Shown in pieces: positions 11,678 to 46,015 of a stretch of DNA of 64,000 bases. Numbering within the stretch: position 1 is the first letter of the stretch; each line of letters starts with the position of its first letter. The stretch covers positions 124,001 through 188,000 of the forward strand of contig JAAXCW010000001.1 in assembly GCA_013036095.1 (NCBI GenBank), given 5' to 3'. The notes under the pieces were generated by a model. The model was given only the letters and a program-made list of their open reading frames with translations, had not been told where the DNA came from and did no database searches. Source of the DNA: Vulcanimicrobiota bacterium. Its GTDB lineage: Bacteria; Vulcanimicrobiota; Vulcanimicrobiia; Vulcanimicrobiales; Vulcanimicrobiaceae. The translations under genes and the position numbers were made by a program.

Positions 11678-12235
11678 ATGATCTCTTCAAACGACTTGCG
11701 CAACGGCATCACGATCGTCGTTGAAGGCCAGCTCTGGACCGTCATCGAGTTTCAGCACGTAAAGCCCGGCAAGGGCTCCGCTTTCGTGCGCACGCGGATG
11801 AAGAACGTCAAGACCGGATCCACGGTCGAACGCACCTTTCGCGCGGGCGAAAAGCTCGAACGCGCCACGGTCGACAACCGCGAGATGCAGATGCTCTACA
11901 ACGACTCCGAAGGCTACCACTTCATGGACAAGGAGACGTTCGAAAACGTCACGCTCCAGCGCGACCTCATCGGCGGCCCCGCCGACTTTCTCAAAGACGG
12001 CATGATGGTTGAAGTCCAGTTTCACGACGGCGTGCCGATCGGCTGCGATCTGCCCGCGCACGTCGAGCTGCGCATCGAAACCACCGACCCCGGCTTCAAA
12101 GGCGATACCGCGCAGGGCACCACCAAGCCCGCCACGCTCGAAACCGGCGCCATCGTCAACGTCCCGCTCTTCGTCAATTCCGGCGACGTCATCCGCATCG
12201 ACACGCGGGACCGGCGTTATATCGGCCGCGTGTAG
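11678..12235 (+). CDS. efp: Translation elongation factor P
   Basis: Relieves ribosome stalling at polyproline. The 185 residues comprise the KOW-like domain and two OB domains. The modification-site loop is KPGKGSAFVRT, with a lysine (Lys32) at the tip as in EpmA-type or unmodified factors. The C-terminus DTRDRRYIGRV is typical. An AAGG sequence precedes the ATG. The factor makes sense in a genome whose secreted proteins carry long Pro-rich stretches (44470, 46073). A long inverted repeat begins 7 bases after the stop. Confidence 0.96.
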   Translation: MISSNDLRNGITIVVEGQLWTVIEFQHVKPGKGSAFVRTRMKNVKTGSTVERTFRAGEKLERATVDNREMQMLYNDSEGYHFMDKETFENVTLQRDLIGGPADFLKDGMMVEVQFHDGVPIGCDLPAHVELRIETTDPGFKGDTAQGTTKPATLETGAIVNVPLFVNSGDVIRIDTRDRRYIGRV

Positions 12236-12242
12236 TCGGGTA

Positions 12243-12312
12243 TAGGCGGATACTATGTCGATCTGGTTTCATGAGCATGTTTAAGAAACCAGATCGACAT
12301 AGTATCCGCCTA
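12243..12312. repeat. Long perfect hairpin element 1 (28-bp stem, 14-nt loop)
   Basis: The arms 12243-12270 and 12285-12312 are perfectly complementary over 28 bases, around the 14-base loop ATGAGCATGTTTAA. From the outside, the arm reads TAGGCGGATAC, then TATGTCGAT, CTGG, TTTC. It lies between efp and the TauE-like gene. There is no T-run after it, so it is not a classical intrinsic terminator. It is an inverted relative of element 2 (12343-12412), sharing TATGTCGAT, TTTC and the loop core GCATGTTTAA. Confidence 0.9.
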
Positions 12313-12342
12313 AGCTCTGTCTCCGCGGAGTACGAGGAAGAC

Positions 12343-12412
12343 AGCCGCAGCGTTATGTCGATTTCGTTTCTTAAACATGCACCAGAAACGAAATCGACAT
12401 AATGCTGTGGCT
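12343..12412. repeat. Long hairpin element 2, inverted copy covering the start of the TauE-like gene
   Basis: The arms 12343-12370 and 12385-12412 pair over 28 bases with 26 Watson-Crick matches; the other two are G:U in RNA. Pairing continues about 4 more bases to 12339/12416. The loop TTAAACATGCACCA carries the reverse complement of the element-1 loop core. Inner TATGTCGAT and TTTC are shared with element 1; the intervening TTCG/CGAA replaces CTGG/CCAG with all four pairs kept. The outer 11 bases are unrelated between elements yet self-complementary. The ATG at 12402 lies inside the 3' arm. A 10-base palindrome, CTCCGCGGAG, lies midway at 12321-12330. Confidence 0.9.
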
Positions 12413-13151
12413 GTTTATCATAGGATTTATCGCGAGCGTCTTCGGATCGATGGTCGGTCTGGGAGGCGGGTTCATCATGGTGCCGATACTGCGGCTCATG
12501 TATGGGCTCTCGCCGCCGGTCGCGGCGGGGACGTCGCTGGCGCTGGTGGTTGCGAGCAGTCTGGGTGGGTCGATCGAGAATTTGCTGCAAAAGCGCGTGA
12601 ACGTGCGAACAGGGTGGCTGATCACGGCCGGCGGAATTCCGGGCGGGATCCTCGGCGCGCTCGCCGTCAAACATTCGACCGCGCAGCTCTTCGACTGGCT
12701 CTTTGCCGCGTTCCTGATCGCCGTTTCGGTTGACATCGTCGTCAACCGGCAGAAACGGCTGCACGAACGACGGGACGCCGAGCGAAAGAATCCGGGCGGC
12801 ATGCTCGCGATGGGGCTGGTCGTCGGCTTCGTTTCGAGTTTATTCGGAGTCGGCGGCGGCGTGATCTTGATTCCGTCGCTGCTCTATTTGACGGCGTTGC
12901 CGGCGCACGCGATAACCGCTACGTCGCAGTTCGCGATACTGCTGACGTCGCCCGTGGGACTCATTACGCACGCGTTCCAGAGCGATGTCGCATGGTCGTA
13001 CGCCGCGCCGCTGGCTGCGGGCGGTTTGTTGGGCGGTCCCGTCGGCGCGCGCCTTTCGGCGCGCGTAAAATCGCCCGTTTTGCTGCTGTGCGTTGCGGTT
13101 GCGCTGACGATCGCGGCCATCGCCATGGTCTTCCGTCACATCACCGGGTAG
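12402..13151 (+). CDS. TauE/SafE-family membrane permease
   Basis: A 249-residue polytopic protein. The internal duplication of the family is visible: N-terminal SMVGLGGGFIMVPILRLMYG and central LFGVGGGVILIPSLLYLTALP, each followed by three hydrophobic helices. Known relatives export sulfite, sulfoacetate or related organosulfur anions; the substrate here is unknown. The ATG at 12402 is the only start after the in-frame TAA at 12372, has no visible Shine-Dalgarno, and lies in the 3' arm of hairpin element 2, so translation could be structure-controlled. Confidence 0.85.
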   Translation: MLWLFIIGFIASVFGSMVGLGGGFIMVPILRLMYGLSPPVAAGTSLALVVASSLGGSIENLLQKRVNVRTGWLITAGGIPGGILGALAVKHSTAQLFDWLFAAFLIAVSVDIVVNRQKRLHERRDAERKNPGGMLAMGLVVGFVSSLFGVGGGVILIPSLLYLTALPAHAITATSQFAILLTSPVGLITHAFQSDVAWSYAAPLAAGGLLGGPVGARLSARVKSPVLLLCVAVALTIAAIAMVFRHITG

Positions 13152-27544: not shown

Positions 27545-27793
27545 TTACCCGTGCGAGACGAAGCGCCCAACGAGCGGCAACAAAATGGAAACAATCACGA
27601 GCCCCGTGAGCCAGATAAATTTGCGGTCCATATTGGCCTGCAAAGAATCCATTCGCGCCAACAGCATATCGCGGGTCGAGTCGATTCTGGGCTCGAGGGC
27701 CGCTAGACGCAGATCGATGCCGTTCAGCCGGTCACTTATCTGCTCGTAAGCCTCCTTCCAGGCGGGCCATGCGAATTTCCATGGGTTGTGCAC
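27545..27793 (-). CDS. Small coiled-coil membrane-anchored protein, copy 1 (frameshifted N-terminus)
   Basis: 82 residues: AYEQISDRLNGIDLRLAALEPRID is a coiled-coil-like stretch, then DRKFIWLTGLVIVSILLPLVGRF is a C-terminal membrane helix. It is a tandem paralog of 27808-28026. The DNA of the two is nearly identical over about 70 bases at the start, but this copy has one extra base (AAGGAGGC against AAGGGGC). The MEIRMARLEG start of copy 2 is therefore out of frame here, and the ORF opens from a different ATG as MHNPWKFAWPAWK. The function is unknown. Confidence 0.55.
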   Translation of the reverse strand: MHNPWKFAWPAWKEAYEQISDRLNGIDLRLAALEPRIDSTRDMLLARMDSLQANMDRKFIWLTGLVIVSILLPLVGRFVSHG

Positions 27794-27807
27794 TCAAAAT
27801 ATGGGCC

Positions 27808-28026
27808 CTAGCCGTGCGGCGCGAAACGCTGGACGAGCGGCAACAAAATAGACACAAGTACCAGTCCGATCACCCAAAGAAATTTATGGTCCATGGCGGC
27901 GAAGCGCTGGTCCATTCGCGTTTCGATAGAACCGAGCCGAATATCAATGCTGTTCAGCCGGTCACTTATCTGCTCGTAGGCCCCTTCCAGGCGGGCCATG
28001 CGAATTTCCATGGGTTGTGCCGTCAT
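27808..28026 (-). CDS. Small coiled-coil membrane-anchored protein, copy 2
   Basis: 72 residues from the ATG at 28026, which follows GAGGAGAG by a few bases. MTAQPMEIRMARLEGAYEQISDRLNSIDIRLGSIETRMDQ forms a heptad-like amphipathic region, then HKFLWVIGLVLVSILLPLVQRF is a single membrane helix at the C-terminus. The layout resembles small tail-anchored or hemolysin-XhlA-like proteins, but I cannot assign a family. It is the intact member of a tandem duplication. Confidence 0.6.
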   Translation of the reverse strand: MTAQPMEIRMARLEGAYEQISDRLNSIDIRLGSIETRMDQRFAAMDHKFLWVIGLVLVSILLPLVQRFAPHG

Positions 28027-40791: not shown

Positions 40792-40844
40792 GCATGGTGC
40801 CGCCCGAGCGGTTAACCATGCCTAAAGCGAGGGTGGCACCATGC
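40792..40844. repeat. Interspersed palindromic repeat, family 2, copy 1
   Basis: Core GCCCGAGCGGTTAACC-ATGCCTAAAGCGAG, flanked by perfect inverted arms GCATGGTGCC (40792-40801) and GGCACCATGC (40835-40844). It lies upstream of the AhbA/B-like gene, in the 40777-40911 gap shared with the 3' end of the TolC-like gene. Related cores occur at 40847 and 43756. Confidence 0.75.
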
Positions 40845-40911: not shown

Positions 40912-42303
40912 CTACAAGGTCGAAGCGCCCAAGTCATTCTCTCCAAGTGCGAACAGATACGTTTGCTCGGCTTGGCGGAGCGCGTAGACGGCGTTGAGTT
41001 CGTCGGTTTCAGCCTGCGTCAGCCCGACTTGGGCGTTCAGCAGCAGCGGCAGTGTGGTCACACCGGCGCGGTATTGCGCCTGCGTGGCGCGCAAGATCTC
41101 TTGCGCCTTCGAAAGTTCGGCCTGAGCTTGACCTACCGCCGCTTGCGCCGAGATAAGCCCAACCAATGCCTGGCGCACGTTGAGCTCGACGGTCAGTTTG
41201 CTTTCATCCAGCTGGCTGTTCGCGATGTCGGCCTGCGTTTGGGCTTGCGCGATTTGGACGCGCGTCACGCCCTGATCGAAGATGGGAATGCTCAGCGTGA
41301 CGCCGGCGCTTCCGCCGGTGCGAAAATCGGTTCCAGTCGCGGTCGTCGAGTTCGTTCCGTAGGCCGCGTTGCCGGTTAGCGTCGGTAATAGGCCGGCGCG
41401 CTGTGCGCGTACGTTATATGCCGCCGCTTGCGCGGTGTACTGCGCCGCCAAGTAGTCGGGCCGCTCCAAGAACGCGCGCGCAACCGCTTGATCGTAATCC
41501 ACTTTTTGCTGCGTCAAGAGCGAAGCCGCCGGATTCGCCGGCGTGTCGTTAACGGGCATGACCAGCGCGCTGGCGTCGAGCCCGAGTTGATTTGCGAATG
41601 CCGCCAGTGCGGAGAGCTGGTTGCCTTGCGCGCGCACGAGCGCGACGCGGGCTTGCGCCGTCGGCAATTGCGCTGTCGCCAGATCGACGCGCGATGCCGT
41701 TCCCGCGCGCAGCTGCGCAGTCACGAGACTCTCCTGCACTTCGTTTTGATGCACGACCTGCACGGCCAGCTGCGTCGCGGACTCCGCTTGCAGCGCGTTA
41801 TAGTACGCCTGCGCGACGTTGAATGCAAGCGTCTGCAGCGATCGCTGATATGTTCCGGCGCCCGCCAGTTGGCCGGACTGCGCTTGGCGGATCTGACTGA
41901 TGACTTTTCCGCCGTCTAAGATAAACTGCCTCAGCGTCGCGTTTAGGCCTTCGCTCGTGAATCCGCCGCCGATCGCTCCCGAGTTACCGCCGCGTGCCCC
42001 GAACGATCGCGTGACGCTGGCCGTACCTGCGAGATTGGGATAGAGTCCGGTGCGCGCGAGATCGACCGAGAGCTGCGTCAAACGGTAATCCGATCGGGCG
42101 ATGGCCAGAACCGGCGAACGCGCCGCCGCAATCGCAATCGATTGCGCCAGCGTAACGGAAACCGGGACCCCGGGCTGCGCGCGCTGCACGGCCGCACCGG
42201 GGGCTGGGGTGCCATAAGCGGGATACGGTAATGCTTGCGGCGTGGCCGCGGGAATGGGCGTCGGCGTCGCCAGAACGACGGCCGCTAGAATGAACGCGTG
42301 CAT
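40912..42303 (-). CDS. TolC-family outer membrane efflux protein
   Basis: 463 residues with a signal peptide (MHAFILAAVVLATPTPIPA). The two-fold repeated helical-barrel pattern shows Gln/Ala-rich coiled coils, for example IAQAQTQADIANSQLDESKL and ELNVRQALVGLISAQAAVGQAQAEL. It forms the trimeric outer-membrane exit duct of a tripartite pump. The ATG at 42303 is 3 bases after the adaptor gene. No inner-membrane pump (RND, ABC or MFS) is adjacent. Confidence 0.92.
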   Translation of the reverse strand: MHAFILAAVVLATPTPIPAATPQALPYPAYGTPAPGAAVQRAQPGVPVSVTLAQSIAIAAARSPVLAIARSDYRLTQLSVDLARTGLYPNLAGTASVTRSFGARGGNSGAIGGGFTSEGLNATLRQFILDGGKVISQIRQAQSGQLAGAGTYQRSLQTLAFNVAQAYYNALQAESATQLAVQVVHQNEVQESLVTAQLRAGTASRVDLATAQLPTAQARVALVRAQGNQLSALAAFANQLGLDASALVMPVNDTPANPAASLLTQQKVDYDQAVARAFLERPDYLAAQYTAQAAAYNVRAQRAGLLPTLTGNAAYGTNSTTATGTDFRTGGSAGVTLSIPIFDQGVTRVQIAQAQTQADIANSQLDESKLTVELNVRQALVGLISAQAAVGQAQAELSKAQEILRATQAQYRAGVTTLPLLLNAQVGLTQAETDELNAVYALRQAEQTYLFALGENDLGASTL

Positions 42304-43746: not shown

Positions 43747-43797
43747 CCGGTTGCTGCCCGAGCGATTAACCTGGCCCAAAGCGAGTGCAGTAACCGG
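43747..43797. repeat. Interspersed palindromic repeat, family 2, copy 3
   Basis: Core GCCCGAGCGATTAACC-TGGCCCAAAGCGAG (43756-43785), flanked by arms CCGGTTGCTGC (43747-43757) and GCAGTAACCGG (43787-43797), 10 of 11 paired. Complementarity continues outward in patches (CACACG...AGGCT with AGCCT...CGTGTG) to about 43734-43818. It fills most of the 228-base gap between the adaptor gene and the thioesterase gene; I see nothing else firm in that gap. Confidence 0.75.
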
Positions 43798-45905: not shown

Positions 45906-45927
45906 AGGCGCTCGGTCTAACTTGGTG

Positions 45928-46015
45928 TCATCCTGAACTCGTCATCCTGAACTTGTCATCCTGAGCCTGTCATCCTGAGTAGAGTTCGCACTGCGAACTC
46001 GTTGTCGAAGGACGA
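45928..46015. repeat. Interspersed palindromic repeat, family 1, copy with four 14-base tandem units
   Basis: Units begin GTCATCCTGA at 45928, 45942, 45956 and 45970, spaced 14 bases. The last continues GTCATCCTGAGTA, then hairpin GAGTTCGCA-C-TGCGAACTC (45983-46001), then GTTGTCGAAGGACG. It lies between the terminator at 45874 and the 3' end of the gene at 46073. CGAAAAAAC and GTTTTTTTCG just after it form a weak A/T stem. Confidence 0.85.

Follow-up and report, generated by a model that had tools for sequence, protein, structure and literature searches.

Two long hairpins stand in a single spacer between two genes of an Eremiobacterota genome: efp, hairpin A, hairpin B and a TauE/SafE permease gene follow one another within the window, the stretch of 64,000 nucleotides that was analysed. 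The original prediction took the conserved loop and the covarying stems of the pair as an indication of selection on a folded RNA or on a hairpin DNA substrate, such as a REP/BIME-like mobile element. Here we describe a family of palindromes with a near-constant loop and stems that stay paired, found among the genomes searched in a single genus and mostly placed directly after genes. We follow its copies through descent at orthologous sites, flips and losses that leave remnants, and describe a strand bias in the stability of the folded units.

Two hairpins between efp and the TauE/SafE gene

The features of the locus are the following.

11678 to 12235, + strand: efp (elongation factor P; Pfam PF08207, PF01132, PF09285), upstream of hairpin A
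12243 to 12312, + strand: hairpin A, class I, with its motif in the sense of efp, starting 7 nt past the efp stop codon
12339 to 12416, - strand: hairpin B, class I, with its motif on the - strand and its core loop at 12372 to 12383
12402 to 13151, + strand: TauE/SafE permease gene (ORF; Pfam PF01925), with its ATG at 12402 within the right arm of hairpin B

Hairpin A has a perfect stem of 28 bp and a loop of 14 nt (ATGAGCATGTTTAA), and its core loop is 12272-12283 (TGAGCATGTTTA). Its span agrees with the original prediction. Hairpin B, placed there at 12343-12412, is longer and covers 12341-12414 (31 positions, 94% complementary) or 12339-12416 (33 positions), depending on the scan. The two hairpins do share TATGTCGAT and TTTC, and GCATGTTTAA, in opposite orientation, and the change of CTGG/CCAG in one to TTCG/CGAA in the other, with pairing kept, is present in the sequence as described. 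The outer arms are indeed different yet paired. The two G:U pairs attributed to hairpin B are found on the + strand only (as G:T), and turn into A.C mismatches when the GCATGTTTAA strand is read.

The right arm of hairpin B (12384-12416) contains the start codon and the first codons of the TauE/SafE gene. The left arm is a reverse copy of these codons and tracks their changes across genomes, with mismatches. The folding energy of 12225-12430 is -124.4 kcal/mol, compared with a mean of -53.3 for shuffled sequences (n=200; z = -15.7), and none of the 200 shuffles folded as well. Rfam gave no match in the window at gathering score, and membership in a known RNA family was rejected on this basis. 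Below that score there were six matches in four other loci, with two microRNA models over the hairpin at dnaK and one over a class II hairpin (see below).

A hairpin family in one genus among the genomes searched

A motif-free census of hairpins was made over 464 kb, made up of the window and a further 20 stretches, each of 20 kb, from the same genome; these stretches were neither random nor blind, one of them (L024) being already known to contain two such hairpins. Thirteen hairpins scored 14 or more. The six that scored 18 or more were hairpins A and B, three with the same loop (at most 2 mismatches) and one with a related core, here called class II. The real loop pattern gave six matches, whereas 20 permuted patterns gave 0-5 matches each (10 in sum, with 5 for one pattern). 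The shuffled folding, the census and the permuted patterns together led us to reject a chance origin.

Ten copies found by BLAST or the census can be aligned gap-free on a core near GGNGYATGTTTA, and their stems differ between sites. This class I core is near-constant, asymmetric and 11-12 nt long (GGNGYATGTTTA, or TAAACATRCNCC on the opposite strand), often with TTCGCT after it. It is one base shorter in five copies of a 40-row alignment. The arms measure about 20-33 bp, or more where they run into the flanks, and the units 54 nt and more.

A covariance model built from the ten copies (R1) finds copies in seven of 60 genomes, which are exactly the seven of the Eremiobacterota genus. The weakest of its 46 rows are a mixture of class I and class II. 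A second model (R2), built from forty copies found with R1, gives 42 distinct strong places (E of 1e-6 or better, by our own count) in all seven genus genomes; 40 of these are training rows of R2 itself, which added two. Hairpins A and B each score 60.6 bits with R2 and are both among its training rows. Eight strong places are in the genome of the window (G000), and 2, 5, 3, 12, 9 and 3 in G001 to G006. The searches beyond the genus found no copies in 53 genomes with R1 at E 0.1, in 39 genomes across the family with R2 at E 0.5, or in 110 genomes across the class with R2 at E 0.01, where the three genome sets overlap and strict filters let only part of the candidates be scored.

The original prediction forecast that more copies would turn up, with the loop constant and the arms variable but paired, and the covariance-model search bore this out; neither outcome that the prediction named as refuting, a lack of further copies or copies without pairing, occurred. 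Carriage by phages or plasmids was rejected. Plasmids gave no match to the patterns, and viral contigs none to the class II pattern and a single one to the class I pattern, where R2 aligned only model positions 20-35 (bits 16). Judging by titles and abstract openings, the family is undescribed in the literature searched, most subscription papers lying outside that search. The observation of a constant-loop palindrome family is real and informative.

Position relative to genes

Of the 42 strong places, 32 come directly after the stop codon of a gene or the end of a tRNA and have their motif in the same sense as that gene, as judged from ORF scans, flanks, tRNA finding and Pfam. The sense copies follow dnaK and groEL (5 each), DUF1761 (4), pntB, rpoZ, glnA and tRNA genes (3 each), uvrB and efp (2 each), and a STAS gene and the gene convergent to pntB (1 each). 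The tRNA is tRNA-Leu in two genomes, and the third was left without a name by ARAGORN. The names of orthologues rest on similar C-terminal tails with one Pfam-tested example each, and grpE, TolC-like and thioesterase-like are names given by eye. The dnaK site, looked at in all genomes but G003, carries a copy in six of the seven. The gap between the stop codon and the 54-nt core is mostly 3-15 nt, and in two copies the stop codon falls within the first bases of the stem. Six copies are reversed: four are copies of hairpin B ahead of TauE, each in a different genome, and the other two stand at dnaK in G005 and at rpoZ in G002. Four of the 42 strong places have no assigned gene.

Inverted pairs occur between efp and TauE (G000, G004), between groEL and DUF1761 (G000, G003, G004, G005), and between pntB and its convergent gene (G004). 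The inverted pair described in the original prediction is not the unit, because many copies stand singly. Just past the groEL hairpin in L111 (G004) and L109 (G000), a further element that seems to have lost its interior, or the right end of one, can be seen by eye.

The position of the copies could point to a host 3'-UTR RNA element, in which a host protein would bind the loop of the sense hairpin and protect or process the 3' ends of mRNAs and tRNA transcripts. The 32 sense positions past gene ends fit this explanation, as do the host genes, which are mostly housekeeping genes, and the separate terminator-like hairpin that follows the groEL copy of G000. Vertical descent with pairing maintained, described below, is also in its favor. 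The failure to find copies in other genera of the class speaks against it, and the mismatches in the stems bear on it further.

Hairpins placed after stop codons are also what intrinsic transcription terminators would look like. Of 46 copies, only one has a T-rich run (6 of 8) near the end of the stem on its motif strand and two have one on the opposite strand, and the dnaK copy of G000 lies 14 nt ahead of the next ORF on the same strand. With the T run missing, the terminator explanation was rejected as barely credible.

Inheritance, movement and loss of copies

For 26 of 34 site-assigned copies the closest copy is that at the same site in another genome, with one more tied. Most copies are therefore inherited, and spread is rare. 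Likenesses across sites also exist. The groEL copy of G006 and the STAS-gene copy of G002 are 96% identical, the groEL and DUF1761 copies of G005 are each closest to the exchanged site in relatives, and those of G003 resemble each other; we count the likeness between G006 and G002 and those of the G005 copies in favor of mobility. Hairpin A is closest to hairpin B of the same genome.

Copies are also missing at some sites, where they can leave remnants. By eye, G006 retains just the outer arms of hairpin B, and G002 has half an arm at efp and a right end at groEL. The efp-TauE locus of G001 has no hairpin, efp itself was not found in G003, and in the Eremiobacteria record L092 the efp-TauE spacer is 18 nt long and without hairpin. 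The glnA copy is absent from four of the seven genus genomes, and the loop from all 16 glnA loci outside the genus. On sequence comparison, copies are for the most part passed on vertically, sometimes appear at new sites and are lost by internal deletion.

Some palindromes have grown. By eye, flank sequence has become part of the palindrome in the dnaK copy of G005, in the pntB copies and in the DUF1761 copy of G004, an outcome expected of replication template switching. This raises the possibility that the palindromes are functionless and are kept perfect by template switching alone, one arm being recopied from the other while the unit extends and flips. The extension into flanks, the left arm of hairpin B that follows the codon changes of TauE, and the occurrence of flips all agree with such an origin. 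The excerpts of PMC8604942 and PMC8794818 used here describe how this mechanism homogenises arms and inverts spacers, and the genus family is like the template-switch-maintained inverted repeats described there in arm homogenisation, arm extension and spacer flips. Unlike the genus family, those repeats have no common core described for them in the same excerpts (PMC8794818, PMC8604942).

Stems that change and stay paired

In the 40-row alignment 87.1% of cells are paired compared with 52.2% in shuffles, a count inflated because R1 and R2 both reward pairing when choosing copies. Copies in G002, G004 and G005 that were first found by sequence alone also pair. The covariation score is 0.836 against 0.213 in shuffles, with none of 500 shuffles as high, and it falls to 0.20 or less when the partner is shifted by 1-3 columns. 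Two of the five covariation measures were not clearly above shuffles (both-side changes, 54 of 500; further pair types, 92 of 500). In pairwise comparisons of copies at the same site, which are non-independent, both sides of the pair had changed in 225 cells that stayed Watson-Crick and in 54 others, one side had changed in 140, and 688 cells were unchanged. Divergence of the stem exceeds that of the loop at all nine sites, strongly at dnaK (0.36 vs 0.09) and weakly at pntB (0.13 vs 0.11). Columns 5, 7 and 11 of the alignment hold 14, 11 and 19 exceptions (non-Watson-Crick or wobble-free), respectively, and the stems are therefore imperfect.

A correction also concerns the step from covariation to selection in the original prediction. 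Covariation alone is no proof of selection on RNA, because replication template switching can mimic the pattern (as described in the excerpts of PMC8794818 and PMC8604942) and because the sense strand has almost no G:U pairs. The family serves as a warning that a hairpin of a bacterium can covary strongly without being a functional sense RNA.

Mismatches differ between the strands

Counted on the GGNGYATGTTTA strand, the pairs that depart from Watson-Crick are A.C (53), T.C/C.T (29), C.C (9) and G.T (9), followed by the rarer G.G (8), A.A (5), T.T (2) and G.A (2). G:U pairs make up 9 of the 729 standard pairs of this strand. Part of the bias sits in the conserved columns 5, 7 and 11, and with columns 5 and 7 left out there are still 32 A.C against 8 G.T. 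Seen from the opposite strand, the two most frequent kinds are wobble pairs and purine-purine mismatches. The models allow G:U pairs on the motif strand, and the search was therefore tilted against this result.

When the arms are folded with a neutral loop, the opposite strand is the more stable in 42 of 46 copies under RNA parameters (less stable in 2, equal in 2) and likewise in 42 of 46 under DNA parameters (less stable in 3, equal in 1), counts that include class II rows and overstate the certainty because copies share ancestry. Means of site groups favor the opposite strand in 22 of 23 groups, where dnaK and rpoZ each supply two groups, one sense and one flipped. The bias stays with the motif in each of the six flipped copies, and is therefore tied to it and not to the host gene. 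We take the strand bias as the best hint, short of proof, that recognition acts on the folded opposite strand, whether as DNA or as RNA.

These findings weigh on the alternatives. Nine G:U among 729 pairs against 53 A.C on the motif strand is the reverse of what selection on a sense RNA would leave, and the six flipped copies retain the bias; we consider a host 3'-UTR RNA element unlikely as the main explanation. Template switching alone leaves the core common to unrelated sites unexplained, and so too the strand-wise mismatch bias and the position after stop codons. Moreover, the flipped dnaK and rpoZ copies keep A in the 5' arm opposite C in the 3' arm, which a simple spacer inversion would not carry over. 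The evidence speaks against template switching as the whole explanation, which we regard as quite improbable, and we retain it as a contributing process. The functional molecule might instead be an RNA from the opposite strand, a small or antisense RNA, since that strand folds better and carries the wobble pairs. Against this, no promoter was seen by eye in the flanks, the RNA would be antisense to the host gene at 32 places, and no Rfam family corresponds to it. This possibility is very doubtful.

Comparison with REP elements and other palindromes

REP-type palindromes are usually defined by a tag together with a stem, and the GTAG types are associated with a RAYT transposase. In the genus family the stem varies, the loop is nearly fixed, and a tag and a Y1 transposase were not found. 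In the excerpt of PMC3733652 used here, REP elements are dispersed palindromes, mostly downstream of genes and either single or in inverted pairs. The units are 20-40 bp with stems of 5-13 bp and an unpaired tetranucleotide of the GTAG or CGTC type at one end of the stem; the CGTC REPs have no dedicated transposase according to this excerpt. The genus family is similar to the elements described there in dispersal, place after genes, occurrence singly or in inverted pairs, and asymmetry, and it is like the CGTC REPs in lacking a dedicated transposase, as far as the Y1 search shows. The description "mostly downstream of coding regions" applies to it, given that 32 of its 42 strong places follow a stop codon or the end of a tRNA.

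The differences from the REP elements of that excerpt (PMC3733652) are equally clear. Stems of about 20-33 bp and units of 54 nt and more contrast with REP stems of 5-13 bp, and the most constant part is the loop, not the stem or foot. The small number of strong places, 2-12 per genome, is a further difference. The tags GTAG, GGAG, CGTC, TGTC and CCTC were found in none of 36 copies (those of the 46 with R1 bits of at least 36) within 6 nt of the 54-nt core on both sides and strands, the distance being taken from the core and not from the true end of longer stems. The recombinase search was limited to one family, the Y1 transposase PF01797, which was found in none of the seven genus genomes (drafts, one of them 56% complete) and in 5 of 14 named genomes as control. 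Classical REP membership was rejected, given the lack of a tag beside the core, the far longer stems and the Y1 transposase not found. The suggestion of a REP/BIME-like element thus survives as to the way of working, and fails as to the REP tags and the Y1 transposase.

REPIN and BIME elements are inverted pairs of palindromic units. Some sites of the genus family are alike in having two inverted units, but these pairs follow gene ends without any repeated composite unit seen. The stem-loop origins used by HUH nickases have a constant loop and a variable but paired stem. The genus family shares both features with them, but it is chromosomal, has several copies per genome, and a nickase for it is only hypothetical. 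By eye, the family is flanked by GCTY before and TTCGCT after, which do not form an inverted box pair like R'' and R' of an integron attC site.

According to the excerpt of PMC8266576 used here, TnpAREP (RAYT) recognises only one of the folded strands, by means of the loop and of mismatches in the stem. By analogy with that excerpt (PMC8266576), the loop, the recurring mismatches and the strand bias of the genus family suggest TnpAREP-like recognition. In such a transferred model recognition would act on the strand opposite the motif, folded as a single strand, and a putative enzyme or binding protein that reads the loop and the stem irregularities would have spread the unit. The arms could change while remaining paired through replication template switching combined with selection for the fold, and some copies may now serve as 3'-UTR hairpins of their host genes.

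We favor, with about even confidence, a genus-restricted family of REP-like palindromic elements that are read as strand-specific hairpins. The same core with different stems at unrelated sites counts for this reading, along with the restriction to the genus, the kept pairing, the strand bias, the likenesses across sites and the efp-TauE spacers of G001 and L092 that carry no hairpin. The sense preference after stop codons counts against it, as it also fits a host role in the transcript, and so do the rare spread, the few strong places and the fact that no enzyme was found in the search for the Y1 family. More tentatively, and as a possibility that we would not presume, the family might represent a loop-defined genomic hairpin element, in which a putative non-Y1 enzyme recognises the folded strand opposite GGNGYATGTTTA and delivers units past stop codons in a preferred orientation, the stems being rewritable if paired. 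The seven related genomes offer common sites with rewritten, flipped, shortened or lost units. Two questions can be tested directly there: by what means palindromes that lack a known transposase spread, and in what way stems that remain paired can change their sequence when the sense strand has hardly any G:U.

Class II hairpins and other repeats in the window

The class II core is longer than the class I core, and two class II hairpins lie within the window.

40792 to 40844, - strand: class II hairpin with a 14-position outer stem around the core TCGCTTTAGGCATGGTTAACCGCTC
43747 to 43797, - strand: weaker class II hairpin with a 13-position mismatched outer stem (score 8) and the core TCGCTTTGGGCCAGGTTAATCGCTC

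The first is 67 nt downstream of a TolC-like ORF (40912-42303, - strand; named by eye), and class II copies also follow a similar ORF in G005 (L079) and G002 (L149). The pattern TCGCTTNGGNGCATGTTTAATCGCTC, with at most 3 mismatches, occurs at 11 places in five of the seven genus genomes, and its reversed control at none. Ten of the 11 places have an ungapped outer stem, L143 being without one. A looser class II pattern was matched four times across the 464 kb. The arms are paired at three of these places, two of which lie in the window; two permuted patterns gave no match in the same 464 kb.

More letters resembling the class II core stand beside the matched ones in L141 (G001) and L143 (G003), as small clusters. 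The copy at 43747 appears to share its gene with L143. Direct repeats of a TCATCCTGA motif are present at 45926-45978 of the window and at L036:9765-9853. This motif is also seen in an imperfect hairpin elsewhere in the genome, with no sign of kinship to the palindrome family. At 27546-28025 of the window there are direct repeats of 48-86 nt with 74-92% identity and a spacing of about 230-263, which suggests a duplicated short stretch or gene.
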